In this document: positions 27,552 through 32,217 of the stretch, in pieces
How positions within the stretch are numbered: position 1 is the first letter of the stretch
Layout of the letters: every line of letters begins with the position of its first letter
Source of the DNA: an uncultured Alphaproteobacteria bacterium
Lineage (GTDB): Bacteria > Pseudomonadota > Alphaproteobacteria > Rs-D84
NCBI GenBank assembly: GCA_944389465.1
Contig: CALXML010000001.1
Span: 143,427-178,254, forward strand
DNA length: 34,828 nucleotides
Reading direction: 5' to 3'
Notes under the pieces: generated by a model
Seen by the model: only the letters and a program-made list of their open reading frames with translations
The model's database searches: none
Told to the model about the DNA's origin: nothing
Position numbers and translations under genes: made by a program

Positions 27552-27655
27552 TATGCGGCAAAATAAAATACGTTTCGTCGGTCACACTGATTGGTGCGAA
27601 GCGTTTGAATCCGGTGTAAATATGCACCACAGTTAAATAAAAAGGAAAATGAAAA

Positions 27656-28033
27656 ATGGCACGTATAGCAGGTGTTAACATTCCGACAGAAAAGCGCATT
27701 GAAATTGCGTTGCAATACATTCATGGTATTGGGCCGGCAAAATCTGCCCAGATTTGCAAGGCTTTGAAACTGAAAGATGGTTTGCGCGCAAAGGACTTGA
27801 CTGACGAGGATGTTGTTAAAATTTCTAACTACATTGAACAAAACTTTAAGGTAGAAGGTGACGTTCGTCGCGAAGTTGCAATGAACATTAAACGTTTGCA
27901 AGATTTGAAAACTTACCGCGGTATTCGTCATCGTAATCGTTTGCCGGTTCGTGGCCAGCGTACACAAACTAATGCCCGTACACGCAAGGGCAAGCGCGTC
28001 GTGGTTGCTGGGTCCGCAGTCAAGGGTAAATAA
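27656..28033 (+). CDS. rpsM: 30S ribosomal protein S13
   Basis: S13 is in the 30S head and contacts the P-site tRNA and 50S bridges. The 125 residues match ([77 protein letters not shown]). AAAAGGAAAATG gives the ribosome site. It begins the alpha operon, which here is rpsM-rpsK only before being interrupted. Confidence 0.98.
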
Positions 28034-30669: not shown

Positions 30670-31206
30670 ATGAGACATATGAGAGCAGGTCGCACATTTA
30701 ACCGCGACACTAATGCACGCAAGGCCTTGTTCATTGGTCTGGCGAAAAATTTAATTGAAAAAGAACAAATTAAAACCACCCTGCCAAAGGCCAAGGATTT
30801 ACGCGGTGTTGTTGAAAAATTGATTACCCGCGCCAAGGTTGACACTGTTGCAAATCGTCGTTTGGTTGCCAGTGAATTGGGCAATGGCTCGGACGCAACT
30901 GTTAAAAAGTTGTTCACGGTTTTGGGGCCACGTTATGCAAAACGTCCCGGCGGTTATACCCGTGTGTTAAAGGCTGGTTTCCGTTATGGCGACGCTGCGC
31001 CAATGGCAATCATTGAATTGGTTGACCGTGATGTTAATGCGAAAAAGGTTGTAAAACCGGCCACAGCGGCAGATGAAAAAGCAACAGAACCTGTTGCAGA
31101 CAAGGCCGAAAAAGCAGAAAAAACGACCAAGAAAACAGCGGCCAAGGCTGATAAAGAAACAGCCGCAGAAAAAAAGCCAGCGGCAAAACGTCGCAGTGCG
31201 AAATAA
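30670..31206 (+). CDS. rplQ: 50S ribosomal protein L17 with Ala/Lys-rich tail
   Basis: L17 sits near the exit-tunnel rim on the 50S subunit. Residues 1-125 match the family ([72 protein letters not shown]). Residues about 130-178 are an Ala/Lys/Glu/Thr-rich tail ([20 protein letters not shown]) absent from the roughly 120-130-residue family core, making the protein 178 residues long. AAAGGAGTAATCA is a strong ribosome site, preceded by a CCCCGA/TCGGGG hairpin. It closes the alpha operon. Confidence 0.96.
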
Positions 31207-31230
31207 AAAACGGGGCATTGCCCCGTTTTT
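31207..31230 (+). terminator. Terminator after rplQ
   Basis: AAAACGGGGC, loop ATT, GCCCCGTTTTT: strong stem with T run; the end of the ribosomal gene block. Confidence 0.88.
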
Positions 31231-31277
31231 GTTAGAGAACAGGGGACAGAGAACAGATAACAGGGTACGGATGTTGT

Positions 31278-31300
31278 CCGCGCGAATGCGCGGATTTTTT
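31278..31300 (+). terminator. Second terminator-like hairpin downstream of rplQ
   Basis: CCGCGC (31278-31283), loop GAAT, GCGCGG (31288-31293), then ATTTTTT. It may back up the rplQ terminator. Confidence 0.7.
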
Positions 31301-31301
31301 A

Positions 31302-31475
31302 TGGATTGCCACGCCACTGCCGTGGCTCGCAATGACAAAGATTTCATTATGCTGAATAGTTATTCAATACTTGTCATTGCGAGTGAAACGAAGCAATCCA
31401 GTTAATATAAACTTATTTGCGCCAGCAAATGCATTTTTCTGGTTTACCACGCCATCTGCGATGGTTCGCAATGAC
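31302..31475 (+). repeat. Cluster of REP-like units
   Basis: Three copies of a roughly 30-bp unit built on GGATTGC...CGCAATGAC: 31302-31336 (plus orientation, containing a CCACG/CGTGG stem), 31371-31400 (minus orientation, TTGTCATTGCGAG...AAGCAATCC), and 31441-31475 (diverged, GGTTTACCACGCC...TTCGCAATGACC). A fourth copy lies before rpsL at 11111-11139. Similar ATTGCGAG...AAGCAATCC units are widespread intergenic repeats in bacteria. No gene is seen in 31231-31530. Confidence 0.65.
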
Positions 31476-31515
31476 CAAGAGATTGGGTTTTCCCAGTAAC
31501 GAGTACCATTATCCC

Positions 31516-31544
31516 TTGCATTAACGGAACTTACGCGGTAATAT
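31516..31544 (+). promoter_or_regulatory. Promoter of the 31550-31750 leader transcript
   Basis: TTGCAT (31516-31521), 17 bp, TAATAT (31539-31544); an overlapping TATAAT (31542-31547) is also present. Predicted start near 31551. Confidence 0.55.
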
Positions 31545-31587
31545 AATTTTGTCGGTGGGTGTTCCGCCGATGGGGTGTAAGAACCCA

Positions 31588-31716
31588 ATGAAGGCGTCGG
31601 AACAATTCGTGGCGCAGTTGCGCTGTTTTTTGTGGCGACGAAAAATAACTCCTGATGCGGTCAGGAGGGTCGTGATATATCAAAATAAGCGACACAATTC
31701 CTTCAATTGTTCTTAA
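31588..31716 (+). CDS. Possible 42-residue leader peptide or small protein
   Basis: A 42-codon ORF (ATG 31588, TAA 31714-31716) inside the leader transcript, basic and Arg-rich (KASEQFVAQLRCFLWRRKIT, then DAVRRVVIYQNKRHNSF). Its codons cover the left and middle pairing arms, and its stop codon directly abuts the third arm of the leader structure. That is the geometry of a translated attenuator, but the peptide is longer than most leader peptides and has no obvious run of one amino acid. The ribosome site is weak (GTAAGAA). The start codon fits the transcript predicted from the upstream promoter. No family recognised. Confidence 0.35.
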   Translation: MKASEQFVAQLRCFLWRRKITPDAVRRVVIYQNKRHNSFNCS

Positions 31717-31724
31717 CCTCCTGA

Positions 31725-31749
31725 CCACCAAAAATTTTGGTGGTTTTTT
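31725..31749 (+). terminator. Terminator upstream of the secreted protein gene at 31777
   Basis: CCACCAAA (31725-31732) and TTTGGTGG (31736-31743) with a tight loop, then six T residues. It stands between the leader and the next gene. Confidence 0.85.
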
Positions 31750-31776
31750 CATACAGAAAAAAACAGGAGTTAGAAA

Positions 31777-32217
31777 ATGAAAAAACATTTATTAATTGCT
31801 GGCCTGATGTGCGTGGCCATAATCCCACCGGCGGCGGCCGTTACAAAATGCGTGGCGTTGAATCCAAATAATACGACTTGCACATACAATCAAAACTTTA
31901 ATACCCTTGATTGGTCGGCAAATTGTACAGCCAATGGCAAAAATGTAAAAATCACAGGGGTTGCCGGATGTTCATCACAATATGGTGGCACAACGGGTGA
32001 AGCATCAGCAACCATATCAACCAGCAGTAACGTTAATGACAATAAATACTGTTGGTGTAAAATGACCAGTCCCGCGGTATCGCAATGGGTGTATTTCTAT
32101 TTTTATATGGGGCCCAGTGCCACCAGTTGCGCAGAACGTTGTGCGACGGATTGTTCAAATGCTCTAAATGGTAATGTATATTTTATGAACGCTATGTTCA
32201 ATAACCTATCTGACTAA
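31777..32217 (+). CDS. Small secreted Cys-rich protein, unrecognised
   Basis: The 146-residue protein has a signal peptide (MKKHLLIAGLMCVAIIPPAA, then A) and a mature part with about ten Cys residues in irregular spacing (VTKCVAL, TTCTYN, ANCTANG, GCSSQ, YCWCKM, then SCAERCATDCSNALN). It is Thr/Ser/Asn-rich and aromatic in the middle (QWVYFYFYMG). Several disulphides and an extracytoplasmic location are inferred. I recognise no family. ACAGGAGTTAGAAA is a strong ribosome site. Expression depends on readthrough of the terminator just upstream. It is followed closely by another secreted protein gene. Confidence 0.82.
   Translation: MKKHLLIAGLMCVAIIPPAAAVTKCVALNPNNTTCTYNQNFNTLDWSANCTANGKNVKITGVAGCSSQYGGTTGEASATISTSSNVNDNKYCWCKMTSPAVSQWVYFYFYMGPSATSCAERCATDCSNALNGNVYFMNAMFNNLSD

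Follow-up and report, generated by a model that had tools for sequence, protein, structure and literature searches.

Organization of the leader locus

The window, the whole 34,828-nucleotide stretch of contig CALXML010000001.1 that was analyzed, comes from a gut alphaproteobacterium of the Candidatus Enterousia type, in the order Rs-D84, and codes for a secreted Cys-rich protein preceded by a 203-nt leader. The promoter, a 42-codon open reading frame (ORF), three arms, and a terminator lie where the preliminary description had placed them, as seen in a sequence check of 31516–31790, and are listed with the other elements of the leader in Table 1. The leader has a predicted MFE of -80.6 kcal/mol (z = -6.1 relative to dinucleotide shuffles), and none of 200 shuffles was equally stable.

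Table 1. Elements of the leader and the downstream gene in the window.
Feature	Coordinates	Strand	Description and basis
Sigma70-like promoter	31516–31547	+	-35 TTGCAT, 31516–31521; -10 TAATAT/TATAAT, 31539–31547; directly 5' of P1
P1 hairpin	31551–31571	+	Presumed 5' end of the transcript; MFE and partner shuffles
P2 hairpin, GGGG(UGU-a)CCC	31572–31586	+	Loop contains strand a, AAGAA, 31579–31583; compensatory copies
ORF, 42 codons	31588–31716	+	ATG at 31588 to TAA at 31716; stop adjoins arm 3
Strand b, TGAAGG	31589–31594	+	Partner b'; b:b' helix test across copies
P3, variable hairpin domain, CGTCG..CGACG	31595–31640	+	Covariation in alignment A3
Arm 1, CTCCTGA	31649–31655	+	arm1:arm2 partner shuffles
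Arm 2, GGTCAGGAGG	31659–31668	+	Partner arm 1 or arm 3; arm2:arm3 partner shuffles
P5 hairpin	31669–31693	+	Near-invariant loop of the GAAUAUAUUGAAUA type, UGAUAUAUCAAAAUAAG in the window copy; covariation and loop conservation
Hairpin c, CAAT/ATTG or CTAT/ATAG	31695–31709	+	Loop is b', CCTTCA, 31700–31705
Strand a', TTCTT	31710–31714	+	Partner P2 loop; a:a' test across copies
Arm 3, CCTCCTGACC	31717–31726	+	Partner arm 2 or, in readthrough RNA, the Shine-Dalgarno sequence
Intrinsic terminator	31723–31751	+	Hairpin 31723–31745, then T6; basal CC 31725–31726 common with arm 3
Shine-Dalgarno sequence, CAGGAG	31764–31769	+	Complementary to CTCCTG of arm 1/arm 3
Secreted Cys-rich protein gene, 146 aa	31777–32217	+	One of about 17 leader-linked paralogues in the genome

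The elements have the same order in copies of the leader found elsewhere, with the promoter followed by P1, P2 with strand a in its loop, strand b, P3, arm 1, arm 2, P5, hairpin c with strand b' in its loop, strand a', the dinucleotide AA, arm 3, the terminator, the Shine-Dalgarno sequence (SD), and the start codon, which in most copies is about 20–35 nt from the leader. Hexamers resembling a promoter are located directly 5' of P1, with at least nine of twelve matches in 65 of 103 copies, compared with 6% of shuffles; the window promoter is not called by a consensus scan, either being too weak or having a spacer outside the 16–18 nt that the scan allows.

The leader matches nothing in Rfam 15 at the gathering threshold, at which the only matches in the window are tRNA and Alpha_RBS elsewhere; the latter, the Alpha operon ribosome binding site (RF00140) at 27588–27688, is barely above its gathering score. 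There is no T-box match in the window at the gathering score, nor any up to E = 10 within 31200–31900, and no tRNA or tmRNA was found at the leader. We found no paper describing the leader RNA; riboswitches go unmentioned in PMC12306168, an mSphere article about the Rs-D84 genomes.

A REP-like palindromic repeat (CATTGCGAG-n5-CGAAGCAATCC) is present near many leaders, at 31300–31480 in the window and also in L010, L011, L020, L022, L023 and L029–L031.

Copy number and distribution

Plain blastn finds about 30 places in the window's own genome that match its leader. A covariance model (R1) built from an alignment of 26 copies found by blastn identifies 38 places in the same genome (953,858 bases), with 34 of them scoring above 57 bits; the four weakest precede three Cys-rich secreted proteins and one PAP2-type protein, and may be true copies because of the genes behind them. 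The density of approximately one leader per 25 kb is extraordinary for a single regulatory RNA.

R1 has matches in 56 of the 59 congeneric genomes, often with at least 30 copies each, and in other families of the order Rs-D84, including 29 copies in G029 and 18 in G075. Among 385 sampled Alphaproteobacteria, 27 have matches, 23 of which are outside the genus and represent 15 further families, and the weakest of these matches may be due to chance. A search of 398 genomes from across the phylum gave no matches beyond the own genome, a single congener, and, weakly, one member of the same class, so false positives of the model appear to be rare. Related leaders occur across many small-genome Alphaproteobacteria, and the architectural plan is also kept in L206, from a 4.7-Mb genome of 63% G+C. 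The RNA leader family is real and previously uncatalogued, and its presence in about 15 further alphaproteobacterial families provides an alignment ready for ligand hunting and structural work.

Records with the core pattern of the leader include Candidatus Enterousia intestinigallinarum, E. excrementavium and E. avistercoris, as well as gut MAGs. The pattern matches in L145 (a bacterial MAG) and L144 (a Pseudomonadota MAG) are confirmed by the model; those in L126 (a Bacteroidales MAG) and L136 (Streptococcus) are not real model matches. No leader was matched in phage, plasmid or viral sequence sets, and this, together with the location of most leaders 20–35 nt before the starts of secreted, envelope, or small HTH genes, argues against a mobile or selfish repeat.

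Genes downstream of the leaders

In the window's genome, leaders precede about 17 paralogues of a secreted family with the motif VTKCV..CWCKM, about nine other Cys-rich secreted proteins, about nine small HTH-like proteins, and one PAP2-type protein. The paralogues share a near-constant signal peptide (MKKHLLIAGLICVATIPPA), followed by a variable mature part with conserved Cys residues and a CWCKM-SPAVS-W motif. Neither the 146-aa protein nor its paralogues have relatives in Pfam or the PDB; an AlphaFold model of the secreted protein (pLDDT 81) gave no convincing structural match, the best Foldseek E value being 0.35 and the best Z score 4.0. In other families, the leaders precede genes coding for beta-barrel outer-membrane proteins, lipoproteins, pilin-like proteins, a glycosyltransferase, and an Mrr-type endonuclease. 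These genes have no single pathway in common, which suggests a global signal as the input and not a single metabolite feeding back. In L019, two leaders are arranged head-to-head, at 991–1142 (leftwards) and 1295–1425 (rightwards), and precede a secreted protein and a small HTH-like protein.

Conserved fold of the leader

The predicted helices covary extensively among the copies. In a structure-free MAFFT alignment, changes on both sides of a pair are present in 108 cells, compared with 3–15 when the partners are slid by one to three columns. With 116 copies fitted to the model there are 608 double-change cells, compared with 30–78 for slid partners, in an alignment that is biased towards the model structure. 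The copies are related by descent, and shuffles that ignore this therefore overstate significance, here and in the partner tests below.

Each of the local hairpins has comparative evidence of its own. The P1 arms pair at -10.1 kcal/mol within a copy, as opposed to -4.1 kcal/mol with partners shuffled between copies. P2 forms a local hairpin with compensatory GAGG/CCTC, GGAG/CTCC and AGGG/CCCT copies. An extended form of P2, in which GGGGU pairs with arm 3 as in the window MFE, was rejected; three pairs can form in 82 of 103 copies, as opposed to 99 of 103 for the local hairpin, and it is the latter that the compensatory changes track. P3 has changes on both sides at all five pairs in alignment A3, and is missing or very short in some copies. 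P5 is paired in 99.6% of cells with double changes at all four pairs, and in hairpin c 40 copies have both bases of a pair changed, from A-U to U-A.

Two further helices, a:a' and b:b', cross these hairpins and were tested copy by copy in 100 copies, outside the covariance model. Helices of at least 5 bp are available for a:a' in 98% of copies (15% with shuffled partners) and for b:b' in 93% (13% when shuffled), the latter with 82 distinct b strands; the mean energies for own and shuffled partners are -3.37 and -0.36 kcal/mol for a:a', and -5.33 and -0.50 kcal/mol for b:b'. P2 and hairpin c thus each pair through their loop with the tail of the other, giving two mutually threaded pseudoknots. 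We found no description in the literature of a fold of two mutually threaded hairpins, and the leader would add one.

The P5 loop is near-invariant across tens of copies, but is different in the distant members L083, L187 and L206, and a single common ligand is therefore not assured. In G029 (L082, L089, L097 and L103) the two conserved P5-loop strands have changed places and flank an additional apical hairpin, similar to a circular permutation, as expected for an internal-loop motif.

Alternative pairings of the arms

Arms 1 and 3 are identical in sequence and are competitors for arm 2. The preliminary description had noted three mutually complementary arms before a terminator, and partner shuffles and covariation confirm that the choice between 1:2 and 2:3 pairing is conserved. 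The mean energy of arm1:arm2 is -9.4 kcal/mol, compared with -7.4 kcal/mol for shuffled partners, with a helix of at least 7 bp in 67% of copies (31% shuffled); for arm2:arm3 the energies are -13.9 and -10.7 kcal/mol, with a helix of at least 8 bp in 95% (36% shuffled). Both pairings beat every shuffle, including those within arm type. Arm2:arm3 has covariation of its own, with GGUUGGAGU:ACUCCAACC in one type, and is kept in other families with quite different sequences, such as GGCCAGAAG:CTTCTGGCC, GGCTGGGAG:CTCCCAGTC, GGTCAGGAAG:CTTCCTGACC and GGCAGGAAG:CTTCCTGCC.

The terminator hairpin is present across copies, and pairing of arm 2 with arm 3 takes two C's at the base of its stem, removing only the lowest two terminator pairs. 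The preliminary description had regarded this two-base overlap as a sign that the switch may be partial. The overlap itself is real and conserved, and it looks functional; the G preceding arm 2, which is in the loop of the 1:2 helix and whose sole partner is the last C of arm 3, a terminator base, is kept in 98 of 100 copies, and the overlap therefore appears to be selected. Without the shared bases the terminator is weaker by an average of 4.3 kcal/mol, and the putative OFF state (1:2 with the full terminator) differs from the ON state (2:3 with a shortened terminator) by -1.0 ± 2.6 kcal/mol in an energy model without pseudoknots.

Some relatives use arm 3 differently. In G076 (L086 and L094) the terminator is gone and arm 3 directly faces the SD (CCUCCAA-n-UUGGAGG-AAAAUAUG), and L102 (genome G097) also has direct arm3:SD pairing, CUCCCA-n-UGGGAG. 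Arm 3 can likewise match the SD in members with a terminator, as with AACUUCC/GGAAGUU in L191 and ACGUCC/GGAUGU in L204. In two tests with 200 shuffles each, none and one, respectively, did as well as the own arm3:SD pairs, whose covariation is strongest in distant relatives; within the genus there is no excess over shuffles within arm type, and arm 1 as the main SD partner does slightly better than shuffles. Whichever the platform, expression would be favored once arm 2 has captured arm 3, and 2:3 is therefore probably the ON state and 1:2 the OFF state. The helices, both alternatives, the order of promoter, leader, terminator and SD, and the exchange of the terminator for SD pairing are shown by comparison.

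The U-tract of the terminator is often complementary to an A-rich stretch before the SD (31744–31763 in the window and at the same place elsewhere; -2.98 kcal/mol compared with -2.36 kcal/mol for shuffles), which may give the readthrough RNA an additional hairpin there, adjoining the arm3:SD pairing. In L132 (581–721, leftwards) the region of arms 1 and 2 is lost and P2, P5, hairpin c, arm 3 and the terminator are kept, constituting a natural deletion of the switch.

A putative riboswitch-like regulatory RNA

We consider it reasonably probable, judging from the comparative data, that the window leader belongs to a new kind of multicopy cis-regulatory leader RNA resembling riboswitches, in which a sensor composed of the pseudoknots and P5 is coupled to a two-way arm switch. 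Transcription would begin at P1, and P2 and hairpin c would then lock as two interlocked pseudoknots (the P2 loop with a', and b with the c loop) adjoining P5, in which the conserved loop is the strongest candidate for where the signal is sensed. In the OFF state, arm 2 would be paired with arm 1, leaving arm 3 free and the terminator complete, and any readthrough RNA could hide its SD by pairing with arm 3; in the ON state, arm 2 would pair with arm 3, with loss of the lowest two terminator pairs and a free SD. A common signal acting at the pseudoknot/P5 domain would set all of the copies together as one RNA regulon comprising genes for secreted and envelope proteins and for small regulators. 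We infer which state is ON and which OFF, the order of folding during transcription, and that the input is a ligand and not a protein.

Enterousia, of the order Rs-D84, are gut bacteria with reduced genomes and a dependence on partners (PMC12306168). No genes for GGDEF, RelA/SpoT, CsrA or Hfq proteins were found in the window's genome; one NusG was found and no second one, so no additional paralogue of the RfaH or LoaP kind is seen. Each of these searches had matches in several control genomes. With no recognizable synthesis of c-di-GMP or (p)ppGpp, and neither CsrA nor Hfq, the leader RNA may be a principal means by which these partner-dependent gut bacteria switch their secreted and surface proteins. 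The broader proposal, that this is a new alphaproteobacterial riboswitch class with an interlocked double-pseudoknot sensor that serves gut bacteria of reduced genome as their main global regulatory device, with one signal read at 30–40 sites in a 1-Mb genome and setting secreted and envelope proteins, falls a little short of being probable and is offered tentatively.

The same switch could be operated by an RNA-binding protein instead of a ligand; this might be a regulator of global range or a small HTH-like protein encoded behind one of the leaders. One near-invariant P5 loop common to tens of copies would suit such a protein, and the HTH proteins encoded behind leaders could feed back, but none of the candidate regulators CsrA, Hfq, and an extra NusG paralogue was found, and a fold of two pseudoknots exceeds what most protein sites need; we regard a protein input as unlikely. 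More doubtful still is a constitutive cassette of promoter and leader, spread by duplication, in which the folded leader shields or insulates the mRNA and the terminator does no more than set a low level of readthrough, with no sensing. Copies do share promoter and leader, and often the gene's signal-peptide region too, and there are many of them per genome, but in such a cassette arm 2 would not need two conserved alternative partners, nor would SD pairing have to replace the terminator, and the platform is nearly balanced in energy.

The terminated RNA of about 200 nt might itself be the product, as a family of trans-acting small RNAs with the downstream genes as bystanders. Each copy has its own promoter and terminator, but the constant short distance to the SD and start codon, the complementarity to the SD, the relatives that lack a terminator at the same place, and the failure to find Hfq make this very improbable. 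Least credible is the original proposal of a translated attenuator, in which a ribosome on the leader peptide selects the fold: the 42-codon ORF of the window copy does stop precisely at arm 3, where the TAA is made by strand a' and the conserved AA, but its start, frame and stop are not conserved, and ORFs that start before arm 1 and stop at arm 3 are at chance frequency (15 of 105 copies, with 15.9 expected from shuffling; 12 ATG-started ORFs ending at arm 3, with 7.1 expected), such that no conserved leader ORF placed to control the arms is present among the 105 copies.

Comparison with known regulatory RNAs

As in riboswitches, a conserved and covarying structured domain is present in the 5' leader, and mutually exclusive helices would, as judged by comparison, control a terminator or an SD. 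Riboswitches with terminator or SD platforms resemble the leader in having a structured leader, exclusive helices, a terminator (in most) or SD pairing (in few), and several copies per genome. The leader differs from them in lacking an Rfam match, in its 38 copies in 0.95 Mb with no common pathway, and in its two interlocked pseudoknots, the strands of which vary between copies. Leader-peptide attenuators of the trp and leu type have a similar choice of 1:2 and 2:3 arms before an intrinsic terminator, but the leader has an elaborate fold in place of a peptide, and no conserved ORF.

GEMM (c-di-GMP-I) riboswitches form regulons in which numerous copies in one genome precede surface and secreted genes, and the leader shares this multicopy arrangement; however, it lacks an Rfam match, and its own genome is without a GGDEF protein. 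The HMP-PP/thiS riboswitch is reported to have an aptamer embedded in the terminator with bases common to both (PMC6478431), which is similar to the sharing of bases between RNA domain and terminator seen here, although the window leader shares two bases of one arm only and its fold is different.
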